The notes beneath the pieces were generated by a model that did not search any database, had not been told where the DNA came from, and saw nothing but the letters and a program-made list of their open reading frames with translations. Positions 9,570 through 26,614 of a stretch of 64,000 nucleotides of DNA are shown in pieces (positions within the stretch are counted from its first letter, which is position 1; each line of letters opens with the position of its first letter). This DNA is from Limnohabitans planktonicus II-D5 (GTDB lineage: Bacteria > Pseudomonadota > Gammaproteobacteria > Burkholderiales > Burkholderiaceae_C), in the NCBI RefSeq assembly GCF_001270065.2, contig NZ_LFYT02000004.1, positions 124,001-188,000 of the forward strand, in the 5' to 3' direction. The position numbers and the translations under genes are program-made.

Positions 9570-9658
9570 GTGTTGGATAGGAAAGCGATACGCAGCTGCT
9601 TAAAGTTCGACGCAGCCTGCAGCTTTGCATGGCCAGTTCAACCACAAAGAGGAAGACC

Positions 9659-10939
9659 ATGAAAAACCAACGTCCAGCATTGAACCGCCGAAGCCTCGGC
9701 TTGTCCTTCATCGCCGCAGCGGCTTTGGCCAGCGCGGCTGGTGCATGGGCACAGGCCAAGCCCATTGTCATTGGATTGCCTATTGCGCAAAGCGGCCCTG
9801 CGGGTGTCGCCGACCACGCTGATTACCTCAATGGTGCCAAGCTCGCTGCCAAAGAAATCAACGCCGCTGGGGGCGTGAATGGGCGAAAAATTGAACTGAA
9901 GGTGTTTGACATTGACATCATGACACCCGAAGGCACGCAGGCCACGTTCCGCAAAATGGTCGATGCCAAGGTCCATGCGATCGCCTCGCCCTTTGTCCTG
10001 ATTCCAACGCCTGCCATGGAAGCGGTGGCGCGTTACAAGGCACCGTATTTGCACGGCAACACACAGGAAGCATCGCTCGATTTGGTCAAAGCCAACCCGA
10101 GCAAATTCAGTCACATTTTCCAGATTGACCCGCCTGAGACCTTCTACGGTGCGGGCTTTCCGGCCTTTTTGGAGCAACTGCAAGCCAGTGGTGCGTGGAA
10201 GCCGATCAACAACAAGGTCCACATCATCCGCGAGCAAATTGCTTACACCCAAACCATCTCCAAAGCGACTGAGGCTGCGCTCAAATCCAGCAAGTTTGAG
10301 TTGGCCAAAGTCACCGACATCCAGTTTCCCGTCCAAGACTGGGGTCCGGTGCTGCAAGACATCCGCAAAACCGGTGCAGGCGTGGTGATGGTCAACCATT
10401 GGGTGGCCGCAGAATTGGCCGCATTTGCCAAGCAGTTTGCTGCCAACCCTTTGCCCGGCGCCTTGGTTTATTTGCAATACGGCCCATCGCAGCCTGAATT
10501 CCTGAATTTGGCGGGCAAAGCTGCAGAGGGCTTTGTGTGGGGCACGGTGTATGGCGCTTACGCCGACAAGCAAGGCCAGGCCTTCCGAGATGCTTACCGA
10601 AAGGAATACTTGGCTTCAGGGGGGGTGATGGGCTTGGTCTACACCGGCGGTGGTTATGACACCGTCAAAATTTTGGCCCAGAACTGGAAAACAGCCGATC
10701 CGGAAAAATTTGACGAGGTCAATGCAGGTTTGCGCAAACTGAGCTACCGGGGTGTGAATGGCTTTTACAGCTTCAACAACCCCCAGCAAGCGCCCAAGCA
10801 CTACCCACTGGAAGTGAAAAACATTGAGCAAGGCATGGCCCACCTTTTTGTGCAGGTGCAAAACGGCCAACACCAAATCATTTCACCCAACGTCTTGAAA
10901 GAGGCCACGTTCAAGCCCGCACCCTGGATGGCCAAATAA
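9659..10939 (+). CDS. ABC transporter periplasmic binding protein, branched-chain amino acid/amide type
   Basis: A 426-residue type I periplasmic binding protein (LivK/AmiC-like). A signal peptide ends about residue 31 (SAAGAWAQA). The mature part opens with 'KPIVIGLPIAQSGPAGVADH', the usual first strand of this family, and has the 'INAAGGVNGRKIELKVFD' motif. The ATG at 9659 is chosen because it follows AGAGGAAG; the in-frame ATG at 9629 lacks a site. It heads an operon with two ATPases and two permeases that runs into the dimethylformamidase-like genes. By context it should capture an amide or amine-related substrate rather than leucine. Confidence 0.9.
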   Translation: MKNQRPALNRRSLGLSFIAAAALASAAGAWAQAKPIVIGLPIAQSGPAGVADHADYLNGAKLAAKEINAAGGVNGRKIELKVFDIDIMTPEGTQATFRKMVDAKVHAIASPFVLIPTPAMEAVARYKAPYLHGNTQEASLDLVKANPSKFSHIFQIDPPETFYGAGFPAFLEQLQASGAWKPINNKVHIIREQIAYTQTISKATEAALKSSKFELAKVTDIQFPVQDWGPVLQDIRKTGAGVVMVNHWVAAELAAFAKQFAANPLPGALVYLQYGPSQPEFLNLAGKAAEGFVWGTVYGAYADKQGQAFRDAYRKEYLASGGVMGLVYTGGGYDTVKILAQNWKTADPEKFDEVNAGLRKLSYRGVNGFYSFNNPQQAPKHYPLEVKNIEQGMAHLFVQVQNGQHQIISPNVLKEATFKPAPWMAK

Positions 10940-10987: not shown

Positions 10988-11028
10988 TGTTGATTTGATT
11001 CATTCACCACCCCCGATTGGGATTGGCC

Positions 11029-11748
11029 ATGCTTTTTTCTTGTGACAACATCCACATGCACTTTGGTGCACGCCCGGTCTTGCAGGGCATTTCTTTGGGT
11101 GTCCACGCTGGTGAGGTGCTGGGGATCGTCGGCCCCAATGGCGCTGGCAAAACCACTTTGCTTGAGATTTTGTCGGGGCGCACAAAACCCACCCAGGGCC
11201 GCGTGCTCTTCGAAGGCCAAGATGTGACCGCCATGCCCTTGCACCAACGCGCCCGTTGTGGCCTGGCACGGACCTACCAGTCGCCAGTAGTGCCTGAGCA
11301 GTTGAGCGTTGACCAGGTGCTCAAGGCTGCACGTCAAGCCTTCACGCCTTACCTCACCTCGCACCATGCGCAATGGGCTTGCGACCAAGTGGGGCTCGCG
11401 GTCAACCCGGCGCAAATGGCAGGTTCACTTGAAACACTGAACCGCCGCAAGTTGCTGTTGGCGTGCTTGCTGATGCGCAAGCCCAAGGTCTTGTTGATGG
11501 ACGAACCTGCGGCCGGTTTGCTGGGCGCGGAGGTGGACGAGATAGACAGCATCTTGCGCTACTTGGCGCAGCAAATGGGCGTGGGCATCATTTTGGTTGA
11601 GCACCGTTTGGAGCTCATGACGGCCATCGCGCAAAGGGTGGTCGTGCTCGATGGCGGGGAGCTGATTGCCGAAGACAAACCTCACCGGGTGTTTGACCAC
11701 CCGAGGGTGAGGGCTGCATATTTTGAGACAGCGCAGGAGGCCGCATGA
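11029..11748 (+). CDS. ABC transporter ATP-binding protein (LivG type)
   Basis: A 239-residue ATPase. Walker A is GPNGAGKTT (about residues 36-44), Walker B is KVLLMDEPAAG and the switch His lies in 'IILVEHRLELM'. The usual LSGGQ signature is altered to ETLNRRKLLLACL, so the canonical Gly-Gly is missing, which is unusual but its position is right. The ATG at 11029 is preferred to an upstream in-frame TTG. It overlaps the next ATPase gene by 4 bp. It powers import through the LivH/LivM-like permeases from the cytoplasmic side. Confidence 0.88.
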   Translation: MLFSCDNIHMHFGARPVLQGISLGVHAGEVLGIVGPNGAGKTTLLEILSGRTKPTQGRVLFEGQDVTAMPLHQRARCGLARTYQSPVVPEQLSVDQVLKAARQAFTPYLTSHHAQWACDQVGLAVNPAQMAGSLETLNRRKLLLACLLMRKPKVLLMDEPAAGLLGAEVDEIDSILRYLAQQMGVGIILVEHRLELMTAIAQRVVVLDGGELIAEDKPHRVFDHPRVRAAYFETAQEAA

Positions 11749-12437
11749 CCGCTCCGAGTACCGAAGTCTTGAGGGTCACGCGCTTGTCTGCCGGGTATGG
11801 ACCGCTGACGGTTTTGCACGATTTGGATTTCACCGTCCATGCCGGAGAGCGCATTGGTTTGGTGGGGCTCAATGGCCACGGCAAGTCCACATTGTTCCGT
11901 GCCATCTCAGGCCTGACCGATTGGCAAAGGGGCTCGATCCAGTTGAGCGGCCATGAAATAGGCGGCACCCGCAGCCAAGGCGCTGGCCGCAACACCCACC
12001 GCATTGTGCGTTTGGGCCTGGCCCACATGCCGCAAGGCGATGCGATTTTTCCGGGGCTGAGTGTGGCCCAGCACCTCGATTGCGGGGCCTACACACGGCA
12101 GGCCTGGCGTGAGCGGATGCAAAGGCGCGATGCTGTTTTGAAAATTTTCCCGCCTTTGTCCAAGTTGTTGGACGCCCCTGTGGGCAAGCTATCCGGGGGC
12201 GAGCGTCGCATGGTGTCGCTGGCGCGTGGACTGATGGTCGATGCTGTGCTTTACCTGGTCGATGAGCCTTCTTTGGGCTTGGCTCCCAAAATCAGTCGGG
12301 GGGTGATGGACGCGTTGATGCGGGTGGATTTGCGGGGTGGTGCCATGGTCATTGCAGAACAAAACATGTCCTTGCTTGAAGGCCGTTGCAACCGGATCCT
12401 GGGCATGCACGCGGGCCAACTGAAAGGGAGTGCCTGA
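11745..12437 (+). CDS. ABC transporter ATP-binding protein (LivF type)
   Basis: A 230-residue ATPase with Walker A GLNGHGKST (about 42-50), signature LSGGERRMVSLARGL, Walker B AVLYLVDEPSLGLAP and switch His replaced by Gln in 'AMVIAEQNMSLLEG', which is normal for LivF (EQN). It starts at ATG 11745 overlapping the previous stop, and its own stop overlaps the next start by one base. LivF and LivG pair as the two nucleotide-binding subunits of the importer. Confidence 0.92.
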   Translation: MTAPSTEVLRVTRLSAGYGPLTVLHDLDFTVHAGERIGLVGLNGHGKSTLFRAISGLTDWQRGSIQLSGHEIGGTRSQGAGRNTHRIVRLGLAHMPQGDAIFPGLSVAQHLDCGAYTRQAWRERMQRRDAVLKIFPPLSKLLDAPVGKLSGGERRMVSLARGLMVDAVLYLVDEPSLGLAPKISRGVMDALMRVDLRGGAMVIAEQNMSLLEGRCNRILGMHAGQLKGSA

Positions 12438-13324
12438 TGGCTGATTTTGAGTTGTCGTTTGTGTTGCTGTCGGCGCTGACCCTGGCCTCCATTTATGGGT
12501 TGTTGGCGGTCGGCGTGTCCATCATTTGGTCGAGTCTGGGCATGCTCAACATGGCCCATGGCCTGACCTTCACCGTGGCCGGTTACGGCGCGGTGTTGGC
12601 CGCCACGCACCTGAGCGAGCATGGCGCAGTCGTCTTGCTGGCGGGCATGGGCAGTGGCATGTTGTGTGGCATGTTCATCAGTGCGGTGGCCTTTATTCCT
12701 TTGCATGACAAACCTAACTTTGTGGTGCGCAGTCTGATTGCCACATTGGCGCTCAGCCTCTTGGGCACTCAAGCCATGCTGTGGCTGTTTGGACCCAGCG
12801 CCAAAAGCCTGCCGCCTTTGTTTGGCAGCGAAGTGATCTCGGTTTTGGGCATGAAGCTGTTGCCCGACAAGTTGGGGGCCATTGTGGTGTCTTTGGTCTT
12901 GATGCTGGCCACTTTGGTGTGGATGAAGCGCAGCCGCACCGGCTTGGAGATCCGCGCCATGATGCAAAACCCTGAAGGTGCCTCTTTGGTGGGCATTGGT
13001 GTGCGCAGCACCGCCATGGCGGTGATGGCCGTGACCGGGGCCTTGGCAGGCCTGGCCGCCGTATTGCTGTCTCAAACTTATTTTGTCAGCCCGTTTTCGG
13101 GCACCACACCGCTGATCAAGGGTTTGATTGTGGCTTTGTGTGGTGGCCTGGGCAGCATCCCAGGGGCATTGCTGGCGGCCGCCTTGATGGGCACCCTGGA
13201 GGCCTTCACCGGTGCATTGCTGGGGGGGCAGTATGTGCTCATGACCCAATTTATGTTCGTGATTGCAGTCCTCATCGTCAGGCCGCGGGGCATTGCAGGC
13301 ATGTTGGACCAAACGCGTGAATGA
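12437..13324 (+). CDS. Branched-chain-type ABC transporter permease (LivH type)
   Basis: A 295-residue membrane protein with about eight helices. It has the family features 'LLAVGVSIIWSSLGMLNMAHG' (quoted in part) near the N-terminus, RTGLEIRAMMQNPEGASLVGI in the cytoplasmic loop that contacts the ATPase (short form: RTGLEIRAMMQNPEGA), and 'LIVALCGGLGSIPGALL'. The ATG at 12437 follows GGGAGTGCCT and shares one base with the livF stop. It forms the transmembrane channel with the LivM-like half. Confidence 0.92.
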   Translation: MADFELSFVLLSALTLASIYGLLAVGVSIIWSSLGMLNMAHGLTFTVAGYGAVLAATHLSEHGAVVLLAGMGSGMLCGMFISAVAFIPLHDKPNFVVRSLIATLALSLLGTQAMLWLFGPSAKSLPPLFGSEVISVLGMKLLPDKLGAIVVSLVLMLATLVWMKRSRTGLEIRAMMQNPEGASLVGIGVRSTAMAVMAVTGALAGLAAVLLSQTYFVSPFSGTTPLIKGLIVALCGGLGSIPGALLAAALMGTLEAFTGALLGGQYVLMTQFMFVIAVLIVRPRGIAGMLDQTRE

Positions 13325-14883
13325 CCGATATGGAGTCCACAGTGAATCAATCAAAATCTCCACCCGTGATGTATTTGGTGGGCCGCCGTCGGTGGTGGCC
13401 TGTGCTGGGGGGGCATGGTGCCAAAGTCTGGTCACGCCTGCGTTACCCCTTTACCCGGCGCACGGTGTTGCAGCTCGAAGGTGTGTACAACCCCAAAACC
13501 TTGGCGCGTGAAAAAAAATTCGTCCACAAAGAACCCATTTGGTGGGCTTTGGGTTTGTTGGCTTTGGCCATCATCCCGCCGCTGGCGGGCATAGGGCTGG
13601 ACAGCAACAGCTTGCTGTCGGCGGCAGCGATTTTTTTGTTGTATGCCGCCATCAACATCGTGTGGACCTTGATCATCGGCACGGCGGGCATCTTCTCCTT
13701 GGCCACCTTGGCCGTGGTCGGGTCTGCGGCCTACGCCGGGGCCTGGTTGTCCATCACCTTCGGTTTGCCCTGGTGGGGCATGATTGGCGTAGGGGGTGTG
13801 GTGGGCTTGCTGGCCGGCGTGGTCATTGCCATCCCCGCCACCCGCCTGGAAGGCTTTTACTACGCCTTGCTCACCTTGGGGCTGGTGGAGTTGTGCCGGG
13901 TCTCGGTGGTGCAATCCAAAGCCCTGGGTTCAGCCACTGGGGGCTTGTACGGTGCCGACTCTTATGTGCCCGACAGCTTCAGTGAAATGGGCGAATTGAT
14001 GCTCAATTACTACGCTTGCTTTGCGGTGATGCTGCTGGCCTTGTTGTTGTATCGGGTCGTCAATGGCCAACGCCTGGGGCGCTTGCTGCGTGCCGCGCCC
14101 GAGAAGCAAGAGGCCTTTGCCCAGGCCATTGGCATTGACTTTTTGCGCGCGCGCATTGAGGTGTTTTTGATCTCGTCGACCGCGTTGGGCTTGATTGGCG
14201 GTTTTTACGCCAGCCATTTCAAAGGGGCGTCGCCTTCTTTGTTTGGCATGGACAACCTCTTGCTGCTCTTGGCCATGATCGTGATCGGAGGCTTGGGCAC
14301 TGCCCAAGGGGCTGTGGTGGGCACTTTGCTGGTGGTGGGCATTGACAAACTTTTTGTGGATCTGGGGCCCATGCGCCTGGCCTTGATTGGCCTGTTGATG
14401 CTGAGCACAGTGTTGTTCACACGCAATGGCCTGTTTGGCATGAAAGCCCAATTTGAAGCCTGGCGCGACCGCATTCGCAGCCAGGCCCGTGCCAGCCGTT
14501 CTGAACATGGAGGAGAAGTGATGCCTGAAGAAGCCGTGGACATTCTTGACAAAAACGACATCGCCCATCGGCGCTTTGACAAGCGCACTCGCGATGCCCT
14601 CAAACCCTTGGTGACGCCTGAGGTTTTGGAAGAGCACCGCTTGTGCCCCCGGGGCCAACACAGCGACGCTCTGATGCGCTTGCTCAACTACTTCCGGGTG
14701 GCCGGTTTGGAAGACAAGTACGCGCTGTTGGCCGAGGTGCCTTTTCAACGCTACAAGATCATTGCCATCTCGGGTGTGCGGGGCGTGCCGCCCCGCATGG
14801 TGGATGACAAAACCTATGGCAGCGTTGACGAGGCCTACCACGCGGTCTTTCTCAAACGTTGTCAAGACCTGCTTGAATCCTGA
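13321..14883 (+). CDS. LivM-type permease with in-frame C-terminal dimethylformamidase small-subunit domain
   Basis: A 520-residue open frame. Residues 1-70 are an unusual cytoplasmic N-terminus; about 71-385 are the LivM permease with 'IFSLATLAVVGSAAYAGAWL' and the ATPase-contact loop 'RLLRAAPEKQEAFAQAIGID'. From residue 401 the chain continues without a stop into about 120 residues resembling the small (alpha) subunit of N,N-dimethylformamidase: 'TPEVLEEHRLCPRG', 'LNYFRVAGLEDKY', 'YKIIAISGVRG', 'DEAYHAVFLKRCQDLL'. A strong internal ribosome site precedes Met401, so both a fusion and a separate small subunit may be made. It overlaps livH by 4 bp (ATGA). Either a real fusion or loss of the livM stop would explain it. 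Confidence 0.85.
   Translation: MTDMESTVNQSKSPPVMYLVGRRRWWPVLGGHGAKVWSRLRYPFTRRTVLQLEGVYNPKTLAREKKFVHKEPIWWALGLLALAIIPPLAGIGLDSNSLLSAAAIFLLYAAINIVWTLIIGTAGIFSLATLAVVGSAAYAGAWLSITFGLPWWGMIGVGGVVGLLAGVVIAIPATRLEGFYYALLTLGLVELCRVSVVQSKALGSATGGLYGADSYVPDSFSEMGELMLNYYACFAVMLLALLLYRVVNGQRLGRLLRAAPEKQEAFAQAIGIDFLRARIEVFLISSTALGLIGGFYASHFKGASPSLFGMDNLLLLLAMIVIGGLGTAQGAVVGTLLVVGIDKLFVDLGPMRLALIGLLMLSTVLFTRNGLFGMKAQFEAWRDRIRSQARASRSEHGGEVMPEEAVDILDKNDIAHRRFDKRTRDALKPLVTPEVLEEHRLCPRGQHSDALMRLLNYFRVAGLEDKYALLAEVPFQRYKIIAISGVRGVPPRMVDDKTYGSVDEAYHAVFLKRCQDLLES
14521..14883 (+). CDS. dmfA1: N,N-dimethylformamidase small subunit, internal start within the livM frame
   Basis: Starting at ATG 14521 (MPEEAVDILDKNDIAHRRFD) this gives a 120-residue protein, close to the size of the dimethylformamidase alpha subunit. 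GGAGGAG stands 6 bases before this ATG, a near-ideal ribosome binding site in the middle of the livM frame. The motifs EEHRLCPRG, NYFR, YKIIAI and EAYHAVFLKR match my memory of the Paracoccus small subunit. It lies 22 bp before the large-subunit gene, the normal dmfA1-dmfA2 order. The small subunit packs on the large one and is needed for the active complex. Whether it is made separately, as a fusion, or both is open. Confidence 0.65.
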   Translation: MPEEAVDILDKNDIAHRRFDKRTRDALKPLVTPEVLEEHRLCPRGQHSDALMRLLNYFRVAGLEDKYALLAEVPFQRYKIIAISGVRGVPPRMVDDKTYGSVDEAYHAVFLKRCQDLLES

Positions 14884-17239: not shown

Positions 17240-17344
17240 CGTGGCCTTGGGGCCATCGAACACCTGTGATTCGGAACTTCCCTGATAGACGAGAGGGCTT
17301 AAACCTTGTTCAATGAAGCGATTCGCACCTCCAATCGCTTGCCG

Positions 17345-18391
17345 ATGAACACAGAAACCTTTGGGCAAACGCTGTTTGATTTGTACCAACTCTCTCGACA
17401 CTCACCCATGCCAGACTTCCAACGTCTGGCTTTGGACACCATCAGCAACCGTTTTGACTTTGACTCCGCCTGGTGGGGCATGGCCTCTCAACCCCCGCAA
17501 GGCGAGATGGAAATCCACGTGTCCTTGCCCTACCGATTGCCCAGCTTCTACCCGGGACTGTGGGATGAGATCAAGCAAGAAGACACCATTGTCTCGGCCG
17601 TCATGGAAAAGCCCGGTGTTTGCGTGAACTTTGGGCGCAAGTCGCTCAACGCCTCCCCCGGCTTGGCCTCCTTGATGGCCCGCTTTGGCATCACCAGTTG
17701 CTTGTGCGTGGTCACCTTGTTGCCCGAACTCAACCTCATGGCGTTTTTGTCCCTGTACCGGGTGGAGGGTAAACCGGCCTTTTCTGAGACTGAGCGTCGT
17801 TACACCCAATTGCTCATGCCGCATTTGACGGCCGCCTTGTCGTCCAATTGGCTGCTCCATTTAGAACGTGTGCGGGCCAACAACGCGACAGGCAGCGCTT
17901 CCCTGGGGGTGGTCGACAGCCGCGGCATGTTGTATGTGGCCGACCAAAACCTCATATCGATGATGCGTGTCGAATGGCCCCAATGGCAGGGCCCTCTGTT
18001 GCCCGATGCCATGGTCAAGCAGCTTCGCGCTGGAGCGCCTTACCGGGGCAAGCGCCTGAGTATGCGCACGCACCCTGTGGGTGATTTGTGGCTGATCGAC
18101 CTGCGCTTGGTCACCGTTGGTGGCCACCTGTCGCCCCGTGAATTGGAAATCGCCCAGATGTTTTCCACAGGCGCGAGTTACAAAGAAATCGCGCGTGATT
18201 TGGGCATTGCCCCCACCACAGCCCGCCACCATTTGCGAGAGATTTACCGAAAGCTCGGTGTGTCTGACAAAGCGGCATTGGCGCACAGGTTATTGGCTCA
18301 AAACGACTCCGAAATCGTTCTGGACGGGCACAGCCATTTTGAAGAGTTACCGGGCGCATCGTCGGCCTTTGGTGATGTCAAGCCGGTCTGA
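17345..18391 (+). CDS. LuxR-family transcriptional regulator
   Basis: A 348-residue regulator. Residues 1-260 have no recognised domain but look like a sensor. The C-terminal LuxR helix-turn-helix covers about 265-325: 'HLSPRELEIAQMFSTGASYK', 'EIARDLGIAPTTARHHLREI', 'YRKLGVSDKAALAHRLL'. Paracoccus dmf genes are controlled by a LuxR-type protein, DmfR, which supports a matching job here. It lies 105 bp after the large subunit gene and is followed by a terminator. ATG 17345 is preferred to an in-frame TTG at 17306. Confidence 0.88.
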   Translation: MNTETFGQTLFDLYQLSRHSPMPDFQRLALDTISNRFDFDSAWWGMASQPPQGEMEIHVSLPYRLPSFYPGLWDEIKQEDTIVSAVMEKPGVCVNFGRKSLNASPGLASLMARFGITSCLCVVTLLPELNLMAFLSLYRVEGKPAFSETERRYTQLLMPHLTAALSSNWLLHLERVRANNATGSASLGVVDSRGMLYVADQNLISMMRVEWPQWQGPLLPDAMVKQLRAGAPYRGKRLSMRTHPVGDLWLIDLRLVTVGGHLSPRELEIAQMFSTGASYKEIARDLGIAPTTARHHLREIYRKLGVSDKAALAHRLLAQNDSEIVLDGHSHFEELPGASSAFGDVKPV

Positions 18392-18448
18392 GGATCTGCC
18401 CATGGTGGACAGGCGCATCAGGCCCAGTTTTTCCCCTCAAAACAACCC

Positions 18449-18473
18449 AGCCCGTTTGCATGCGGGCTTTTTT
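18449..18473 (+). terminator. Rho-independent terminator after the LuxR gene
   Basis: AGCCCG (18449-18454) pairs with CGGGCT (18463-18468), followed by six T in all. It lies about 60 bases after the LuxR stop and separates the importer/amidase block from the P450 block. Confidence 0.75.
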
Positions 18474-18607
18474 CATCGTGTTCTTTTTTTGTTTCAACAT
18501 CTCAGCTGTGTCAATGGGCTCGTTCATTTGTTCGGGGGTGAAAACCCCGGGTGGATTGATGCTCAAAGTTGATACTGGTGTGAGATCCTTTTGCTTAGCA
18601 TGAGGCC

Positions 18608-19348
18608 ATGCCTGAAAAAACCCAATTTACGCCGCGCTTGGCGGTTTTGCTGACCAACGACGACACGTCTGCATTTGCCATGGATTTTCCCAATGATGGG
18701 CAAAAAGTGGTTCAGCTGCTGCAACCCTTGCGTCCCCACTGGCAGTTTGACGTGGTTCCTGTCAAGGACGGTGTCTTTCCTTCGCAAGCCTATGACGGCT
18801 ATGTCATGACCGGAAGCCCGGCTTCGGTCAATGATTCCAGCTTGCCTTGGATGGCCCCCTTGCTGGATTTCATTCGCCAGTTGGACGCCGAACAGAAACC
18901 CCTGATCGGCTTGTGCTTTGGCCACCAGGCGGTGGCCAAAGCCTTGGGCGGCGAGGTGGCGCGTCACAGCGCGGGTTGGGGCTTGGGCACTGCGCCCACG
19001 CACTGGACCACCACGGCAGAGTGGATGCAACCCAGCCAAGCCACCACCACCTTGATGGCCGCGCACAATGAGCAAGTCACCCGCATGCCTGAAGGCTCGG
19101 TGTGTCTGGGTGGCAGTGACTTTTGCCCCATCGGCTCGATGCACATCGGCCAGCACATCTGGACCACCCAGTTTCACCCCGAAATGCCTTTGGTTTTCAT
19201 GCAAGCCGTCTTGGCGCATTTGGCCGACAAACTTGATGCGCCGACCATGGAGAAAGCCCACGCCAGTTTGGCCAATCGCGCCGATGCGCCCTTGTTTGGG
19301 CAATGGATGGTGCAGTTTTTTGAAGCCTGTTTTGAAAGAAAGTTATGA
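18608..19348 (+). CDS. Class I glutamine amidotransferase-like protein
   Basis: A 246-residue protein of the GuaA/GATase-1 fold. The nucleophile Cys is in LIGLCFGHQAVAKALGG (about residue 103), the catalytic His-Glu in 'TTQFHPEMPL' (about 195-197), and 'YVMTGSPASVND' is the oxyanion-side strand. Proteins of this kind either supply ammonia from glutamine or cleave gamma-glutamyl amides. Next to a glutamine-synthetase-like ligase, a gamma-glutamyl hydrolase role like that of PuuD in putrescine breakdown is attractive, though PuuD belongs to a different branch (peptidase C26). It overlaps the P450 gene by 4 bp. Confidence 0.82.
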   Translation: MPEKTQFTPRLAVLLTNDDTSAFAMDFPNDGQKVVQLLQPLRPHWQFDVVPVKDGVFPSQAYDGYVMTGSPASVNDSSLPWMAPLLDFIRQLDAEQKPLIGLCFGHQAVAKALGGEVARHSAGWGLGTAPTHWTTTAEWMQPSQATTTLMAAHNEQVTRMPEGSVCLGGSDFCPIGSMHIGQHIWTTQFHPEMPLVFMQAVLAHLADKLDAPTMEKAHASLANRADAPLFGQWMVQFFEACFERKL

Positions 19349-20610
19349 CGGTTTGGAACCCTAGCGACGACGGCCATGCCGACCTGTCGGACCACGACAG
19401 CTATGTGAACGGCACGCCGCACAACACCTTCAAGCGCCTGCGCGATGAAGACCCTATGGCCTGGTGTAACTGGGCCGATGGCAAAGGCTTTTGGTCGGTC
19501 ACGCGGCATGCCGACATTCTGGAGCTCAACCGCAACCACCAGCGCCTGTCCTCGGCCCAAGGCATCCGCATGGAAGACCAGTCGCACGATGAGTACATGG
19601 CGCGGCGCACCTTTCAGGAAACCGATCCGCCCGAGCACACCCGCACCCGCATGCTGGTGGCCAAGGCCTTTTCCAAGCCCATGATGGCGCTGTACGAAGA
19701 GCAGATCCGAGAACTCTGCGTGGGCATCCTCGACCAGGCCCTGGCGCTGGGCGAGTTTGACGCCACGCACCAGATCGCCCGCCAGCTGCCCATGCGCATG
19801 CTCGGGCGCATCGCGGGCCTGCCCGAGGAGGACCTGGACTGGCTGGTGGACAAGGGCGACGCGCTCATGGCCAACACCGACAGCGATTTCACCACCCATG
19901 TGGTCGACAAGATGGACACTGAGGCCTACCGCTTCATGCCGTTTCGCTCGCCCGCCGGGGCTGACCTGTTCGACTACGCTGCCCAGATGATGGAACGCAA
20001 GCGCGCAGCGGGCGACACCAGCGGCGTGCTGCACCTGATCACCCAGCCCGACGCCCAGGGCAATGTGATCAGCGACACCGAATTTCGCAACTTCTTTTGC
20101 CTGCTGGTGGCGGCGGGCAACGACACCACACGTTATTCGATCGCTGCCGCCTTGCATGCGCTGGCCAACCAGCCTGGCCTGATGGCGCAGCTCAAGGCGG
20201 TGCAGGGCGAGGCCGCCTGGGAGGGCGTGTCCGACGAGTTCATCCGCTGGGCCTCACCCGCCACGCACTTTCGCCGCACCGCGACCGAGGACTTCGAGTA
20301 CCACGGCAAGGCAGTGAAGGCGGGCGACAAGGTGCTGCTCTGGTTCATCTCGGGCAACCGCGATGAGCGCGCTTTTGACCGGCCGTTCACGGTCGACCTG
20401 AATCGGGGCGTGAACCGCCACCTGTCGTTCGGGCAGGGCGGTGCGCATGCCTGTCTGGGCATGTGGCTGGCGCGGCTGGAATTGCGCGTTTTGCTGCAGG
20501 AGCTGATCAAGCGGGTGGACCGCATCGAGCAGACGGGTGAGCACGCCTTTTTGCGATCCAACTTTGTCTCCGGTATCAAACGCTTGCCCGTGCGCATGCA
20601 CTTAATCTGA
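19345..20610 (+). CDS. Cytochrome P450
   Basis: A complete 421-residue soluble bacterial P450. The heme-binding loop is FGQGGAHACLG (362-372) with Cys370 as thiolate ligand; the oxygen-activation motif AGNDTT is at 257-262, and the ExxR motif is EFIR at 298-301. 'DPPEHTRTRMLVAKAFS' near residue 95 is also typical. It receives electrons from a 2Fe-2S ferredoxin and FAD reductase, both encoded close by (class I system). With a glutamine-synthetase-like gene beside it, the set recalls the mycobacterial clusters for piperidine, pyrrolidine and morpholine (pip/mor), where a P450 hydroxylates next to the amine nitrogen. The substrate here is inferred, not shown. Confidence 0.93.
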   Translation: MTVWNPSDDGHADLSDHDSYVNGTPHNTFKRLRDEDPMAWCNWADGKGFWSVTRHADILELNRNHQRLSSAQGIRMEDQSHDEYMARRTFQETDPPEHTRTRMLVAKAFSKPMMALYEEQIRELCVGILDQALALGEFDATHQIARQLPMRMLGRIAGLPEEDLDWLVDKGDALMANTDSDFTTHVVDKMDTEAYRFMPFRSPAGADLFDYAAQMMERKRAAGDTSGVLHLITQPDAQGNVISDTEFRNFFCLLVAAGNDTTRYSIAAALHALANQPGLMAQLKAVQGEAAWEGVSDEFIRWASPATHFRRTATEDFEYHGKAVKAGDKVLLWFISGNRDERAFDRPFTVDLNRGVNRHLSFGQGGAHACLGMWLARLELRVLLQELIKRVDRIEQTGEHAFLRSNFVSGIKRLPVRMHLI

Positions 20611-20621
20611 AAGGAACCACC

Positions 20622-21914
20622 ATGTCAAATGTTCAAGAACGCCTGCGGGTGCTGTATTGCGACCACCTGGCCATTGCGCGGGGCAAATACGTCACGCTCA
20701 AACCCGGTCAGGGCGGTGGTGCCCGTTTTTGCCGAGGCACCTTTGGCGTCACTTACGAAAAAGAGCTGATCCCGGCCCCGGGCGCGATGGTCATGGAAGG
20801 CCTGCCCGACATGGAGGCGGCCTACACCGCCGAAGACATCCGCCAGGGCTGGCAGCCGTTCACCCAGGTGGCCATTGGCGATCTGAAAGCCAACGACGGC
20901 ACGCCCCTGCCCATGTGCGGGCGCAGTGCCTTGAAGCGCGCCGTGGCCGACTGGCAGGCCATGGGTTACGACCCGATGGTGGGCATTGAGCTCGAAGCCT
21001 TTGCCTTCCAGATCGAGCCTGACGGCTCGCTCAAACCCTACGACACGCCTGCGGCCCATGTGTATTCCACAGGCCCATTTTCCGACCCGAGGGGCTTCAC
21101 CGACGCCCTGTGGGAAAAGGCCTCGGCAGCGGGCTTTCGCATCGACAGCATGAACACCGAATACGACGCGCCGCAGTTCGAATTCACGCTGACCTACGAC
21201 CGTGCCGTGAAGGCGGTGGACGACATCTTCTTGTTCCGCCTCTTGGCACGCGAAGTCGCTTTCCAGCACGGCATCGTGCTGACCTTCATGCCCAAGCCCA
21301 TACTCACGGTGGGAGGCAGCGGGGTGCACATCAACTTCAGCCTGCGTGATGGTCAAGGCCACAACGCGATCTCGGGCGGCCATGACGCGAGCCAGTTCAA
21401 CGCGCTCACCCTGGGCTGCACCGCCGGGCTGATGCACCACCACCAGGCCTTGGCGGGCCTGCTGGCACCCAGCGCCAATTCATACAAGCGCCTGCAACCG
21501 GCCAGCCTGTCTGGCTTTTGGAAAAACTGGGCCGTGGACCACCGGGGCGTCACGGTGCGTCTGTCGGCAGAAAGTGGTTCGGGCGCACGCATTGAGCACC
21601 GCATGGGTGACGCCGCCGCCAACCCCTACACCCACACCGCCGCAGTCTTGCAGGCGGCGCGTCTGGGTGTGGTCAATGGCTATGCGTTGCAGCCAGCCGA
21701 GACGGGTGACTGTTTGGAAAACAAAGATGCCACCGAAAGCGTGTCGGAAACCTTGTCGGGTGCGCTGGATGCGCTCGAAGCTGACACCGTCTTGAGTCAG
21801 GCTCTGGGCCAAGGCTTGGTGGACAACCATGTGGGGATCAAGCGCCACGAAATTGAACGCACCGCAGCCCTGGAGGGTGATGCGCTGCGGGATTACTACA
21901 TCCGTTACATCTGA
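20622..21914 (+). CDS. Glutamine-synthetase-like gamma-glutamyl ligase (GlnA type III / PuuA-GMAS group)
   Basis: A 430-residue protein with the glutamine synthetase catalytic domain: metal ligands in 'GIELEAFAF', the ATP/metal loop 'VGGSGVHINFSL', 'SANSYKRLQP', and 'ARIEHRMGDAAANPY'. It is shorter than GlnA and lacks the adenylylation loop of the housekeeping enzyme. Relatives ligate glutamate to amines: PuuA with putrescine, GMAS with methylamine. The neighbours (P450, aldehyde dehydrogenase, aminotransferase, amidotransferase, permease) point to an amine substrate. A good site (GAAAGGAACC) precedes the ATG, 11 bp after the P450 gene. Confidence 0.87.
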   Translation: MSNVQERLRVLYCDHLAIARGKYVTLKPGQGGGARFCRGTFGVTYEKELIPAPGAMVMEGLPDMEAAYTAEDIRQGWQPFTQVAIGDLKANDGTPLPMCGRSALKRAVADWQAMGYDPMVGIELEAFAFQIEPDGSLKPYDTPAAHVYSTGPFSDPRGFTDALWEKASAAGFRIDSMNTEYDAPQFEFTLTYDRAVKAVDDIFLFRLLAREVAFQHGIVLTFMPKPILTVGGSGVHINFSLRDGQGHNAISGGHDASQFNALTLGCTAGLMHHHQALAGLLAPSANSYKRLQPASLSGFWKNWAVDHRGVTVRLSAESGSGARIEHRMGDAAANPYTHTAAVLQAARLGVVNGYALQPAETGDCLENKDATESVSETLSGALDALEADTVLSQALGQGLVDNHVGIKRHEIERTAALEGDALRDYYIRYI

Positions 21915-21924
21915 AGGACAGCAC

Positions 21925-23217
21925 ATGCAAGCCTGGGAGGCCTTGGGACCTGACGCCACGGTGGTGGTGGTCGGGGGTGGTCATGCCGGTGCGGCCGTGG
22001 TCTCGCAGTTGCGCAGTCAAGGCTTTGCCGGGCAGTTGGTGCTCATTTCTGCCGAAAATGGCTTGCCTTACCACCGGCCGCCCTTGTCTAAAAAGGCCTT
22101 GCTGGAGGGGGCGGACATGGCTTCAATGAGCCTGCGTCCCGAGTCCTGGTACGTGAGCAACCGGGTGACCCGCTATGCCTCTACCACGGTCACCGGTATT
22201 GACCGCGCTGCCCGTCGTGTGCACTTGCAATCGGCATCAGCCCCCGAGGTCATGGCCTATGACGCACTCATTTTGGCCACTGGCGCGGCACCTCGGCCAT
22301 GGACCGATCCAGTCACAGGCGGCGACGCTTTGGGTCTGGCCGATGGTGTTCATGTGCTGCGCGATGCGGAGGACGCGCAGGCCTTGCGCGCTGCGTTGCT
22401 GGCCAGTGGCCATCTTGTCATCGTCGGCGGCGGCTACATCGGTCTGGAAGTGGCAGCCACGGCCAGGGCCTTGGGGTGCGCGGTGTGCATCGTGGAGCAA
22501 GCGCCGCGCATTTTGCAGCGCGTGGCACCTCAGGCCACCAGTCAGCTGCTGCGTCAGCTGCACCAATCCCATGGGGTGCAGCTGTTTGAAGGTGCCCAGG
22601 TCGTAGCGCTGCAGCGCGAAGGACAAAAAATCAGCAGCGTACGCATCCAAACCGCCGAAGGCGAGTTGCGCGATCTTCAGGCCGACTTGCTGCTGGCCGG
22701 TATTGGTGCGGTACCCCGTGACGATTTGGCCAAAGCCTGTGGTTTGGAGGTGGGCAATGGCATTGTGGTCAATGCCCAAGGCCAAACCCAAGACCCCGCC
22801 ATTTGGGCCGTGGGGGATGTGGCCAGACACCGGGACCAATCGATCCGCATCGAGTCGGTAGGCAACGCCAACCACCAAGCCGCCTTGGTGGCTGCGGCAT
22901 TGATGGCCCGACCAGAACCACTGCCTTTTGTGCCCTGGTTTTGGTCCGACCAATACGGTGGGCGTTTGCAAATTGCAGGCTTATGGACAACGGCAGACCG
23001 TTGGGTGGAGCGCCAAGAGGGTGCGCAGGGGCGCAGCATTTGGTCTTACCAAGGCACGCGGCTGGTTGCGGTCGATGCGTGGCAAGCCCCTTTAGCCTAT
23101 GTCTTGGGCAAGAAATGGTTGGAAACCGGCCAATATCCTCCTGCCGAATGGTTGGCCCATCAGGACCAAAACTTAAAGGACTGGGTGCCTCAAGCCCCCA
23201 GTGTCGTGTCGCCATGA
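21925..23217 (+). CDS. FAD-dependent ferredoxin reductase (putidaredoxin reductase type)
   Basis: A 430-residue flavoprotein. The FAD-binding Rossmann motif is VVVVGGGHAGAAVVSQL (about residues 12-28), the ATGAAPRPW segment follows, the NADH site is 'LVIVGGGYIGLEVAATAR' (about 165-182), and 'DPAIWAVGDVARH' is the second FAD contact. It passes electrons from NAD(P)H to the ferredoxin and so to the P450. The ATG at 21925 follows GAAGGAC, 10 bp after the previous gene, which is why this start is chosen over a longer frame reaching into it. Confidence 0.92.
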   Translation: MQAWEALGPDATVVVVGGGHAGAAVVSQLRSQGFAGQLVLISAENGLPYHRPPLSKKALLEGADMASMSLRPESWYVSNRVTRYASTTVTGIDRAARRVHLQSASAPEVMAYDALILATGAAPRPWTDPVTGGDALGLADGVHVLRDAEDAQALRAALLASGHLVIVGGGYIGLEVAATARALGCAVCIVEQAPRILQRVAPQATSQLLRQLHQSHGVQLFEGAQVVALQREGQKISSVRIQTAEGELRDLQADLLLAGIGAVPRDDLAKACGLEVGNGIVVNAQGQTQDPAIWAVGDVARHRDQSIRIESVGNANHQAALVAAALMARPEPLPFVPWFWSDQYGGRLQIAGLWTTADRWVERQEGAQGRSIWSYQGTRLVAVDAWQAPLAYVLGKKWLETGQYPPAEWLAHQDQNLKDWVPQAPSVVSP

Positions 23218-23296
23218 TGTTGAGTGAGCGCGACAAGCATTTTTTTCGATGGGCTGAATCCAGCCCCATGTTTTTAACTTTGAAAGAGAGCACACC

Positions 23297-23611
23297 ATGC
23301 CTAAAGTGCACTGGATTTTGCCCAATGGTGACCGCGTCAGCGACGATGTCAACGAAAACAGCAACCTGATGGATGCGGCCCAGATGAATGGCATTGCCGG
23401 CATCGATGGCGAATGCGGCGGTTGCTTGTCTTGCGCCACCTGCCATGTGGTGGTGGATGACGCTTGGCTGGCCCTGTGCCCCCCCATGGGCGAGGTGGAG
23501 AACGCCATGCTGGACATCGTCAGCTCACCCCGCCAAAGCGGCAGCCGCTTGAGCTGCCAATTGGCCGCATCGCCCGTCCTCGATGGCATCGTGCTTCATG
23601 TTCCTCAATGA
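23297..23611 (+). CDS. 2Fe-2S ferredoxin, putidaredoxin/adrenodoxin type
   Basis: A 104-residue ferredoxin. The cluster loop ECGGCLSCATCHVVV gives the C-x5-C-x2-C pattern, and the fourth ligand is in 'SGSRLSCQLAAS'. An additional Cys sits inside the loop (CGGC) where putidaredoxin has Ser. 'MCPPMGEVENAMLD'-like text, here LCPPMGEVENAML, matches the helix that docks to the reductase and P450. It carries single electrons between the flavoprotein and the P450 encoded upstream. 79 bp separate it from the reductase gene. Confidence 0.93.
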   Translation: MPKVHWILPNGDRVSDDVNENSNLMDAAQMNGIAGIDGECGGCLSCATCHVVVDDAWLALCPPMGEVENAMLDIVSSPRQSGSRLSCQLAASPVLDGIVLHVPQ

Positions 23612-23619
23612 GCTGACGC

Positions 23620-25095
23620 ATGTCTGATCACCAACTCCAGCGCAACCAACTCGGTGTCGCGTCCATTGTGTTTTTTGTCGTCGCCGCTGCAGCCCCGCTC
23701 TTGGGGATGACCGGCGCTGCGCCCATGGCCATTGTGTTGGGCAATGGGGCCGGTGTGCCCGGATCGTATTTGCTGGTGGGCTTGACCTTGCTGTTGTTCA
23801 GTGTGGGTTACTGCGCCATGAGCCGTCGCGTGACCAATTCGGGCGCATTTTTTGCCTACATTGGCAGCGGCTTGGGTTTGTCCGTCGGTTTGGGGGCGGC
23901 CTTGGTGTCAGTCTTGGCCTACGCTGCCATCCAATTGGCCATTTATGGGTTTTGGGGTGGGCTCTTGGCCATGCAATGGGGTGTGCTGCCTTGGTGGGGC
24001 TGGTCTGGCTTGGCCTGGTGCTTGGTGACGATTTTGTCCATGCGCCAAGTCGAGGTGGGGGCCCGCTTGTTGGGCGTTTTGCTGCTCATGGAGATGGCCT
24101 GTCTGCTCGTCACCGCTGTGGCCATCTTGTTGCACGGTGGTCCAGAGGGATTGTCTTGGGGTGCGGCTTTTTCGCCTGAAAATGTGTTGTCGGGAGGGTT
24201 GTCAGGCTCTGCAGGCGTGTCTTTGGCTTTTGCTTTGGCTTCGTTCATTGGCTTTGAAGCCACGGCCATTTATGGCGAAGAGTCAATTGACCCCAAAACC
24301 ACGGTGCCTCGCGCGACATACTGGGCCGTTGCCTTGATCACGGTGTTTTTCGCGCTGACCTCGTTTGCCATCGTCACCGGTCTGGGCGCTTCCCAAGTGG
24401 TGGATGAGGTGGTCAAGCGCACCACAGTGAATGGTCAGGCCTTGGCCGACCCTGCGGCGGTGTTGTTGTCCTTGGCCAGTGAATTCGTCGGTCCTTGGAT
24501 GGCCAGTGCGATGGCGCTTTTGGTCATCACCAGCTTGTTTGCCGGATTGCTGGCGTTTCAAAATTCGGCGGCGCGCTACTTGTTTGCATTGTCTCGGGGT
24601 GGCGCATTGCCTGCTTCGCTGGCCCAGGTCAATCGCCAAGGTGCGCCGTTCAAGGCGTCGGCTTGTGTCAGCGTGCTCACGGCCTTGGTCATGTCGGCCT
24701 TTGCCGTGTCCGGCTTGGATCCCATTGTTCAGCTGTTCGCTTGGTGCAGTGGCGTGGCGGTGGTCGCGATTTTGATGATCGAGGTCTTGGTTTCGTTGGG
24801 CGTTTGGGCCTATTTCAGACGCTCGCACGAGAAGGTGGGTGCCTGGGCCAGCACCATTGCACCTTTGGCCTCGGCCGTGCTGTTGAGTCTGGGTTTGTAT
24901 TTGCTGCTGTCGCGCTTTGGCTTGCTCACCGGCTTGGTGATGACGGGGGTAGACCCCGCCGCTACAGCATGGGGACTGAGCCCCCTGGGTTGGTTGCTGG
25001 CCTTGTTGCCCGCTTTGGTCGGGGTTGTGGGCTGGGCCACGGCACACTGGCGTCCCTTGGGCAGCAAGCAATTGCTCAAAGACATCCTTTCCTGA
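23620..25095 (+). CDS. APC-family amino acid/amine permease
   Basis: A 491-residue inner-membrane carrier with about twelve helices. It opens with 'LGVASIVFFVVAAAAPLLGM' and has 'ASFIGFEATAIYGEES' in helix 6, the mark of the amino acid-polyamine-organocation superfamily. It is probably a proton-coupled importer of an amino acid, amine or gamma-glutamyl compound, as PuuP is in the putrescine pathway. It follows the ferredoxin gene by 8 bp, so it belongs to the P450 operon. Confidence 0.88.
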   Translation: MSDHQLQRNQLGVASIVFFVVAAAAPLLGMTGAAPMAIVLGNGAGVPGSYLLVGLTLLLFSVGYCAMSRRVTNSGAFFAYIGSGLGLSVGLGAALVSVLAYAAIQLAIYGFWGGLLAMQWGVLPWWGWSGLAWCLVTILSMRQVEVGARLLGVLLLMEMACLLVTAVAILLHGGPEGLSWGAAFSPENVLSGGLSGSAGVSLAFALASFIGFEATAIYGEESIDPKTTVPRATYWAVALITVFFALTSFAIVTGLGASQVVDEVVKRTTVNGQALADPAAVLLSLASEFVGPWMASAMALLVITSLFAGLLAFQNSAARYLFALSRGGALPASLAQVNRQGAPFKASACVSVLTALVMSAFAVSGLDPIVQLFAWCSGVAVVAILMIEVLVSLGVWAYFRRSHEKVGAWASTIAPLASAVLLSLGLYLLLSRFGLLTGLVMTGVDPAATAWGLSPLGWLLALLPALVGVVGWATAHWRPLGSKQLLKDILS

Positions 25096-25111
25096 ATTAC
25101 AAAGGTCATCC

Positions 25112-26596
25112 ATGAAACAAGAACACATCGACGCACTGCGTCACCAAACCATCCCTGATCAGGGCTTGCTGATCGACGGGCAGTGGGCAGCTGCAGCATC
25201 TGGCCAGGCCTTGCCCGTGGTGTCGCCCATCGATGGGCAGCAGCTGTGCACCATCGCAGCTGCCGGGGCTGTGGATGTCGACCGCGCCGTGCAGGCAGCC
25301 CGCCGCAGCTTTGAGCAAGGCGTGTGGTCACGCATGGCGCCAGCCGAACGCAAGAAAATTCTGCACCGCATTGCTGACCGCATTGAGGCCCACCACGCCG
25401 AACTGGCGGTGCTGGGCGTGCGCGACAACGGCACCGAGATTGCCATGGCCTGGAAGGCCGAGCCCGGCAGCGCGGCGGGCACCTTTCGCTATTACGCTGA
25501 GTGTGTGGACAAGATCAACGGCGAGATCGCCCCAACGCCAGAAGGCACACTGGGCTTGATCCACAAGGAGGCGGTCGGCGTGGTGGGGGCCATCGTGCCC
25601 TGGAACTTTCCGCTGATGATCGGTGCCTGGAAGATCGCGCCGGCCTTGGCGGCAGGCAATTCGGTGGTGCTCAAACCTTCTGAAGACGCCTCGCTGTCTT
25701 TGCTGCGCCTGGCGCAGCTGTGCTTGGATGCGGGCTTGCCTGCGGGTGTGCTCAATGTCGTCACCGGCTCCGGCGCGGAAGCGGGCGAGGCGCTGGCGCG
25801 GCACATGGATGTGGACATCCTGACCTTCACCGGCTCCGGCCCGGTGGGGCGCATGTTGCTCAAGGCCTCGGCCGAGTCCAACCTCAAGCGGGTGTACCTG
25901 GAGCTGGGTGGCAAGTCGCCCAATGTGGTGTTTGAGGATGCGCCCGATCTGGCACAAGCGGCCAAGGTCTCGGCCATGGGCATCTTCCGCAACAGCGGGC
26001 AGGTGTGTGTGGCGGGCTCGCGCCTTCTGGTGCAGCGCTCGGTACACGATGAATTTGTGGATCGGCTGCAAAACATCGCATCCAGCCTGCGCGTGGGTGA
26101 TCCGCTGGATGTGACGATGGACATTGGCGCAGTCAGCAGCGCCCGCCAGCTGACCCGCAACCAGAGCATGCTGGCCCGTGCTTTAGAGCAGGGCGCTCGT
26201 TTGCGCACCGGCGGTCAGGTGATTGCGCCTGTGCCCGGTGGCCAGTTCATGAGCCCCGCCGTGCTGGATGGCGTTCAGCCCGAGATGGAAATCGCCCGGC
26301 AGGAGGTCTTTGGACCGGTGCTGGCCGTCATGCCGTTTGATGATGAGGCCCATGCTGTGCGCCTGGCCAATGGCACCGAATATGGGCTGGCCGCAGGGGT
26401 GTGGACCGGCAGTCTGTCTCGTGCCCATCGCATGGTGCGCGCCATCAAGGCCGGGCTGGTGCACGTCAATACCTATGGCGGCCCCGACATCACCGTGCCG
26501 CTGGGCGGCGTGCGGCAGTCGGGCAATGGGCACGACAAGTCGATGCATGCCCTGGACAAATACCTGGACCTGAAAACGGCCTGGATTCAGCTTTGA
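25112..26596 (+). CDS. Aldehyde dehydrogenase, gamma-aminobutyraldehyde/PuuC-like group
   Basis: A complete 494-residue NAD(P)-dependent aldehyde dehydrogenase. Key sites are 'PWNFPLMIGAWKIAPALAAG' (cofactor region, about 160-180), general base Glu in LELGGKSPN (about 265) and nucleophile Cys in 'FRNSGQVCVAGSR' (about 300). It oxidises an aldehyde to the acid. Between an amine-handling P450 block and an omega-aminotransferase, the likely substrate is an omega-aminoaldehyde or its gamma-glutamyl form. ATG 25112 is 16 bp after the permease gene with AAAGG before it. Confidence 0.92.
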   Translation: MKQEHIDALRHQTIPDQGLLIDGQWAAAASGQALPVVSPIDGQQLCTIAAAGAVDVDRAVQAARRSFEQGVWSRMAPAERKKILHRIADRIEAHHAELAVLGVRDNGTEIAMAWKAEPGSAAGTFRYYAECVDKINGEIAPTPEGTLGLIHKEAVGVVGAIVPWNFPLMIGAWKIAPALAAGNSVVLKPSEDASLSLLRLAQLCLDAGLPAGVLNVVTGSGAEAGEALARHMDVDILTFTGSGPVGRMLLKASAESNLKRVYLELGGKSPNVVFEDAPDLAQAAKVSAMGIFRNSGQVCVAGSRLLVQRSVHDEFVDRLQNIASSLRVGDPLDVTMDIGAVSSARQLTRNQSMLARALEQGARLRTGGQVIAPVPGGQFMSPAVLDGVQPEMEIARQEVFGPVLAVMPFDDEAHAVRLANGTEYGLAAGVWTGSLSRAHRMVRAIKAGLVHVNTYGGPDITVPLGGVRQSGNGHDKSMHALDKYLDLKTAWIQL

Positions 26597-26614
26597 TTTT
26601 TGAAAGTAAATGAC

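Follow-up and report, generated by a model that had tools for sequence, protein, structure and literature searches.

In Paracoccus, dimethylformamidase (DMFase) is, according to the available passages of its description (PMC7686228), an alpha2beta2 assembly or the dimer of one, in which the large subunit (beta) is inactive without the small subunit (alpha), iron is held by two tyrosines and one glutamate, and His519 and Asn547 are catalytic. In the Paracoccus and Methylobacterium enzymes (DmfA1-DmfA2; 6lvb; PMC7686228 and PMC4543880), alpha is encoded by a separate gene situated directly before that of beta, with no LivM match in the flank examined. By contrast, a stretch of 64,000 nucleotides from Limnohabitans planktonicus II-D5 (contig NZ_LFYT02000004.1, positions 124,001 to 188,000; hereafter, the window) encodes a DMFase-type alpha that forms the tail of LivM, the second permease subunit of a HAAT-type ATP-binding cassette (ABC) importer. 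In other respects, the window resembles the described systems. As in Paracoccus and Methylobacterium, its large subunit offers the same iron ligands and the same catalytic histidine and asparagine, and its small subunit is of the same fold; as in LivM/UrtC-type HAAT permeases, its permease contains a BPD_transp_2 domain and is encoded in an operon with LivH, LivG, LivF and a binding protein. As argued below, it is quite probable that this importer tethers an iron hydrolase at its inner mouth via the LivM::alpha protein, with a start codon inside the same gene yielding the free alpha that completes alpha2beta2. A fusion of this type appears to be present in many bacteria of soil and water.

Positions 13321-14883 of the window form one stop-free frame of 520 codons that encodes a LivM-type permease followed by the DMFase small subunit (Table 1). 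The original prediction that no stop is found where LivM should end and that the frame continues for 120 further codons was borne out, the frame being open throughout, and the three DMFase alpha motifs then quoted (EEHRLCPRG, NYFR and EAYHAVFLKR) are all found in the translation. Residues 99-361 match BPD_transp_2 (Pfam, 4.5e-24), while the last 120 residues match chain 6lvb_B, the small subunit of the Paracoccus enzyme (phmmer, 2.2e-9). An AlphaFold model of the fusion (50 sequences; mean predicted local distance difference test score (pLDDT), 79) compared with 6lvb_B using Foldseek gave a template modelling (TM) score of 0.80 (by target length) and a root-mean-square deviation of 1.7. The model comprises permease helices, a helix spanning residues 371-393, a stretch at 397-410 with pLDDT values below 50 and a helical domain from residue 408 (block means of 72-93). 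As such, the stretch at 397-410 is predicted to be a disordered linker, inside which Met401 falls. The permease part of the model yielded weak Foldseek matches (E > 0.01) to metal-chelate and BtuC-type permeases.

Relative to LivM/UrtC-type permeases, the fusion adds not only a C-terminal enzyme subunit but also an N-terminal extension. Matches of 12 other LivM-like genes of the Limnohabitans genome to the fusion permease begin at residue 65 or later, and a profile of the extension returned 15 matches in 248 genomes (one alphaproteobacterial family), 14 of which lie in alpha-fused frames, the 15th being weak (3.1e-4). The fusion permease, moreover, falls below the NCBIfam cut-offs for both LivM (68 bits vs. 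366) and UrtC (60.1 bits vs. 296.2).

The distribution of the fusion was considered in a genome scan with the small subunit, relying on patterns derived from fused sequences and, as such, biased toward fusions. This revealed 73 loci from isolates and metagenome-assembled genomes (MAGs) of several classes, carrying Alpha-, Beta- and Gammaproteobacteria labels and sharing a conserved linker. Read upstream from alpha, the frame continues into LivM without a stop in each of the 73, and in seven of them it extends to the contig edge. Profile scans performed without fused-derived patterns detected alpha in 8 of 369, 6 of 398, 20 of 248 and 36 of 385 genomes, with the genome containing the window being counted in the first two sets. 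Not every match became a locus, and 71 loci were compared. Of these, 17 present LivM directly upstream of alpha and all 17 are fused, some overlapping with the genome-scan loci; one further locus (L134) is itself the second copy behind a fused gene; and 53 show no LivM match in a flank of approximately 1.5 kb, with the large subunit lying beside alpha in 52. LivM followed by a separate alpha alone was encountered neither among the 71 profile-scan loci nor among the 73 scan loci. Because all 73 scan loci and all 17 profile-scan loci with LivM directly upstream are fused, the fusion is real and no sequencing error. The comparison of the livM/dmfA1 border in related genomes, proposed earlier as a check, accordingly found no stop.

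In a tree of 97 small subunits, 70 fused sequences and 18 second copies (described below) group with a single stand-alone alpha, that of Caballeronia, found on a long branch. Support for this group (91/73) is not strong; the other eight stand-alone alphas fall outside it. The alpha part retains 22 positions that are invariant over 50 fusions, 11 of these fusions coming from loci that also contain a second alpha gene, while a comparison of five fused with five stand-alone alphas shows 13 invariant positions. The membrane-tethered subunit originally proposed thus gains support, given that alpha was found to be fused wherever LivM directly precedes it and that the conserved residues of the fused alpha are retained in loci that have a free alpha gene as well.

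Certain members of these collections call for separate mention. A protein named as an inner-membrane translocator in Halalkalicoccus was considered as a possible archaeal fusion and rejected, being a 180-residue protein without a LivM match. On the plasmid of Halalkalicoccus jeotgali B3 (L095, 6538-11658), genes for DMFase-like small and large subunits adjoin one encoding a primary-amine oxidase; the small subunit, 180 residues long with internal insertions, perhaps had its name transferred from the fusions. In three loci labeled as Klebsiella pneumoniae (L054), Desulfobacula (L027) and Gemmatimonadales (L059), the fused genes come from MAGs, such that transfer and wrong binning are indistinguishable.

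Within the linker, the codons for Gly397-Gly398-Glu399 read GGAGGAG, which resembles a Shine-Dalgarno (SD) sequence and precedes an ATG at 14521. The earlier claim concerning this site held in terms of the presence of the motif and of the ATG being in frame with the fused gene, although not in terms of spacing, which is 5 rather than 6 bases (the motif occupying 14509-14515). An in-frame GTG (14518) directly precedes the ATG and represents an alternative start. The internal start was considered in 75 fused genes, namely, those of the 73 scan loci, the window and a Rhizobium plasmid (L096), with an SD being defined as strong when its duplex energy with the 16S rRNA end was -9 or less. A strong SD precedes 41 of the 55 ATG codons at the junction, as opposed to none of the 839 other in-frame ATG codons. 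The corresponding values at the junction and elsewhere in frame are 13 of 14 and 6 of 1,294 for GTG, and 4 of 8 and 12 of 652 for TTG. When genes were sorted according to the state of the start, a strong SD was found in 27 of 28 with ATG at the site, in 6 of 8 with GTG or TTG at the site, in 14 of 27 with ATG one codon earlier, in 0 of 1 with GTG one codon earlier and in 0 of 11 with no start. A strong SD and a start at the junction are thus combined in 47 of the 75 fused genes, although not in all lineages.

Codon use at the site was next compared with that at other conserved glycines, using 69 aligned fusions and 27 glycine columns that are at least 90% conserved. The two SD glycines rank first and second in the use of GGA (50 and 29% of rows, respectively; the next column, 18%), and, over the tree, the third base of the first SD glycine underwent two purine/pyrimidine changes, the lowest number among 25 columns. 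The count of third-base changes is from a table of all rows, since a codon-bias table based on rows picked for SD strength was circular and was discarded. In Rhodococcus and Caballeronia, the first methionine of the stand-alone small subunit occupies the exact column of the internal methionine of the window; the stand-alone subunits of Paracoccus, Methylobacterium DM1 and Halalkalicoccus extend further at the N-terminal end. Although SD energy stands out little from that of synonymous recodings when loci are taken singly, its strength lying in the set, conservation of the internal SD and start beyond what codon usage would dictate is supported across the set at the sequence level.

A separate small-subunit gene is found beside the fused gene in 18 loci belonging to two clades, where it lies between the fused gene and the large subunit in 11 and, in the other 7, follows that large subunit and precedes another one. 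A strong internal SD is present in none of these 18 loci. Likewise, none of the 47 genes with a strong SD and start is accompanied by an adjacent same-strand second alpha, with 36 of the 47 offering at least 2,900 bases downstream. Among all loci with at least this length of downstream sequence, 36 have a strong SD and no second gene, 16 have a second gene and no strong SD, nine have neither and none has both (Fisher p 1e-8, a value that ignores kinship). On the tree, two changes of state are counted for the second gene, a single origin being rejected (approximately unbiased test, p 2.6e-49; 17 of the 18 rows in the tree), and in the small-subunit tree the second copies fall among the fused sequences, on longer branches. 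By eye, the second copy of one locus (L078) begins at the internal start position. The same relation is seen inside individual genomes. In three that each contain two fused modules (G1087, G946 and G991), the second gene occurs only in the module without a strong SD, while another (G1103) agrees with this rule, module by module, where its contigs allow. Because all 18 loci with a second gene lack a strong SD, fused and free alpha both appear to be wanted; to judge from these gene arrangements, a free alpha seems to be needed beside the tethered one. The original proposal of a free subunit arising from an internal start is, therefore, supported by an SD and start that are conserved beyond codon usage and positioned within a predicted disordered linker, by the coincidence of the start with the first methionine of two stand-alone alphas and by the lack of a strong SD in the 18 loci with a second gene.

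The following arrangement could bring these observations together. In a HAAT-type ABC importer, LivM would have been remodelled at both ends, gaining a basic extension at the N-terminus and, at a C-terminus taken as cytoplasmic, a flexible linker and a DMFase-type alpha. By binding the beta encoded just downstream, the tethered alpha would keep the hydrolase next to the inner opening of the importer; there, the amide brought in, probably an N-methylated formamide, would be hydrolysed to formate and an amine. Within the linker codons, a ribosome-binding site would serve to generate a second, free alpha of 120 residues; in two lineages, the free alpha would be supplied by its own gene, with the strong internal site being absent. 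A LivH-LivM importer carries one LivM per complex. Given also that the enzyme is alpha2beta2 and that beta alone is inactive, a free alpha would therefore complete the enzyme, and an enzyme dimer with one alpha tethered and the other free would suit one importer. On balance, we lean toward a single gene giving rise to both tethered and free alpha, such that one alpha2beta2 is assembled at the importer exit, with the internal start and the separate gene being interchangeable sources of the free form.

Several observations weigh against this arrangement. In seven of the 18 second-gene loci, the additional alpha is accompanied by another beta and may be part of a separate enzyme. In nine loci for which downstream sequence is available, both a strong SD and a second alpha gene are missing; these loci, that of Methylobacillus arboreus among them, resemble the group without an SD in terms of duplex energy, yet all keep an ATG at the site. 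In such loci, a free alpha may not always be needed or may be made from a weaker site. Genomes with a weak site and a single alpha match do exist (G779, G923 and G114), while one locus with a strong SD (L033) also contains, at a distance of 8.9 kb and on the opposite strand, a divergent alpha-beta set. Considered by itself, the SD of the window does not reach significance once codon usage is taken into account (p 0.147; synonymous recodings), and two other in-frame codons, GTG at 13801 and TTG at 13807, both included in the control counts above, are also preceded by strong SD-like sequences. When all third-base changes are counted, the first SD glycine shows 12, as compared to 11 in the lowest column, and the second SD glycine is ordinary. 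Finally, an independent-pairs test of SD against start codon involved three pairs and had no power, while the few changes on the tree (start, 4; SD, 3; second gene, 2) do not allow for covariation to be tested as independent events.

Of the other explanations considered, the idea that the fusion reflects a frameshift, an assembly error or a missed stop draws on the 5'-GTGATG-3' found at the border, which contains TGATG, a common stop-start overlap, in another frame. The frame is, however, open in all 73 loci, which include isolates as well as MAGs, span several classes and keep the linker, and 24 of 38 plasmid records give it as a single permease gene; an artefact of this type was accordingly ruled out, its probability being negligible. 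Alternatively, the fusion protein alone could be made, with SD-like codons at the junction slowing the ribosome so as to allow for permease insertion and alpha folding, without any initiation. Such pausing would be in line with the placement of the SD-like sequence at the domain border behind the permease and with the nine loci presenting neither a strong SD nor a second gene. Pausing does not, however, require a start codon, yet one is kept in all 45 loci that lack a second gene and have at least 2,900 bases downstream (36 with a strong and nine with a weak site). Nor would pausing account for the start falling in the column of the first methionine of two stand-alone alphas or for an adjacent separate alpha gene being found solely where the strong SD is absent. 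We consider this explanation unlikely.

It is also conceivable that both forms of alpha exist and that a protease releases the free form from the fusion at the linker, in agreement with the predicted disorder of residues 397-410. Since cleavage would explain neither the bias toward GGA codons nor the absence of a strong SD in the loci with a second gene, it is deemed extremely improbable. In yet another scenario, the alpha attached to LivM would act as a regulatory or sensor domain of the importer, with the enzyme using only free alpha. Here, the divergence of the two alphas where both exist, with second copies on long branches, could be cited. Yet it is the fused alpha that is the more conserved copy, as reflected in the 22 invariant positions noted above, with 13 positions also being shared with stand-alone alphas, and most fused loci show no second alpha beside the fused gene. 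A purely regulatory tail is, as such, very unlikely. Overall, pausing, proteolysis and a regulatory alpha tail explain less of the pattern than does an importer-tethered hydrolase completed by free alpha.

Examination of the surrounding genes in the window revealed the fused gene to be encoded together with a second permease, two ATPases and a binding protein, with the LivH stop overlapping the start of the fused gene (ATGA). The order SBP-LivG-LivF-LivH-LivM::alpha (SBP, substrate-binding protein), on the same strand, is found in 62 of 74 loci, the remaining 12 having no more than 3,687 bases upstream. The large subunit follows the fused gene in 69 of the 75 genes, the window included, with the remaining six having no more than 136 bases downstream. 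In an alignment to 6lvb_A, read by eye, the beta of the window is identical to the Paracoccus enzyme at Tyr399, Tyr440, His519, Glu521 and Asn547, while Phe693 is replaced by tyrosine; in the available passages of PMC7686228, these six positions correspond to iron ligands and catalytic or pocket residues. The window thus encodes a beta with all five active-site residues and, beside it, a small subunit of DMFase fold.

Table 1. Features of the importer-hydrolase module in the window.
Feature	Position	Strand	Basis
Periplasmic substrate-binding protein (Peripla_BP_6)	9629..10939	+	Pfam PF13458, 5e-36
LivG-type ATPase	11017..11748	+	Pfam ABC_tran, 2.1e-25; position conserved
LivF-type ATPase	11745..12437	+	Pfam ABC_tran, 4.3e-28; position conserved
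LivH-type permease (mechanical open reading frame; true start perhaps downstream)	12386..13324	+	Pfam BPD_transp_2, 2e-33
Fused gene, livM::dmfA1-like, 520 amino acids	13321..14883	+	Single open frame; fusion kept in 73/73 loci
Basic N-terminal extension of permease	13369..13545	+	Matches to 12 other LivM-like genes; extension profile; alignment
Internal SD-like GGAGGAG (Gly397-Gly398-Glu399 codons)	14509..14515	+	Duplex energy -9.3 with anti-SD; GGA ranks first and second
Internal ATG, putative start of free alpha	14521..14523	+	Stand-alone first-methionine column; SD and ATG contrast
DMFase small subunit (alpha), 120 amino acids, domain of fusion and putative free protein	14521..14883	+	6lvb_B, phmmer 2.2e-9; Foldseek TM 0.80
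DMFase large subunit (beta), iron amidohydrolase, 777 amino acids	14906..17239	+	6lvb_A, phmmer 1.3e-186

In ten methylotroph or Roseobacter-type loci (L032, L043, L046, L049, L050, L055, L070, L076, L077 and L080), an additional binding-protein-like gene is located upstream of the module on the minus strand (one member scanned), together with genes for a sensor kinase-like protein and a NarL-like regulator, named by reading translations. Judging from these translations, this set possibly serves as an amide sensor.

In terms of a small subunit of a complex that is encoded in frame inside a larger gene in certain types and by a gene of its own in other types, the closest parallel is Cas11, produced from an internal start in cas8 or cas10, according to the accessible parts of PMC11899642. 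The Cas11-type arrangement, a conserved SD and start within a larger frame, is found in 47 of the 75 fused genes. Cas11, however, belongs to a CRISPR effector, whereas here the larger product would be a membrane importer and the smaller one an enzyme subunit. A transporter and the enzyme acting on its cargo are joined in one polypeptide in SulP anion transporters fused to carbonic anhydrase; these are not ABC importers, and the available passages of PMC6458275 do not describe a shared subunit or an internal start. In the DMFase literature searched, with most subscription papers lying outside that search, no DMFase-permease fusion is described, and in the one text found to mention both dimethylformamidase and a permease, the permease passages concern trimethylamine N-oxide. 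DMFase, transporter-enzyme fusions and internal in-frame small subunits are thus known singly, while their combination in an ABC importer was not met within this partly accessible literature.

Associations proposed between transporters and enzymes, or metabolons, have often been deduced from weak interactions. Should the arrangement described here prove true, it would offer a case of covalent transport-enzyme coupling conserved across loci labeled as Alpha-, Beta- and Gammaproteobacteria, a natural example of an importer passing its cargo directly to an enzyme, and an instance of one gene setting the ratio of membrane-bound to free copies of a subunit. The finding also corrects current annotation. 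The fusion is named as a branched-chain amino acid ABC transporter permease in the 24 plasmid records (of 38) mentioned above, while the small subunit of the window (14521-14883) goes unmatched in both Pfam and NCBIfam at E 0.001.

The conserved active site, together with nearby genes for methylamine dehydrogenase, copper amine oxidase and formaldehyde metabolism, points to a methylated amine as product and, hence, to an N-methylated formamide as the likely cargo. The heavy or light chain of methylamine dehydrogenase is encoded near two loci (L018 and L022; open reading frames (ORFs) scanned), with related ORF clusters in five to six loci; a copper amine oxidase cluster occurs in seven loci, six of which are of the Bradyrhizobium group (one member scanned); and formaldehyde genes are found on a Rhizobium plasmid. 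In clustering the flanks, one giant cluster was set aside as probably comprising out-of-frame ORFs of GC-rich DNA and the smaller clusters were read; six of ten cluster representatives were scanned, while two of the other four look spurious. A cargo of this type would tie the module to the breakdown of formamide-type pollutants and to methylotrophy.

Among minor observations, the AAK-1 beta-lactamase predicted at 6096-6359 of L099 coincides with an IS3-like transposase gene and appears to be a false positive. In the window, the region behind the module (17306-27979) encodes a LuxR regulator, a glutamine amidotransferase-like protein, a cytochrome P450, a glutamine synthetase-like ligase, a ferredoxin reductase, an amino acid permease, an aldehyde dehydrogenase (best model PuuC, below cut-off) and a class III aminotransferase. 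The predicted content of this set is suggestive of a gamma-glutamyl amine route. In Limnohabitans sp. DM1 (L015), as much of the set as falls within the flank is retained, while in the near kin L016 and L018, a methylamine dehydrogenase-type cluster is found downstream in its place.

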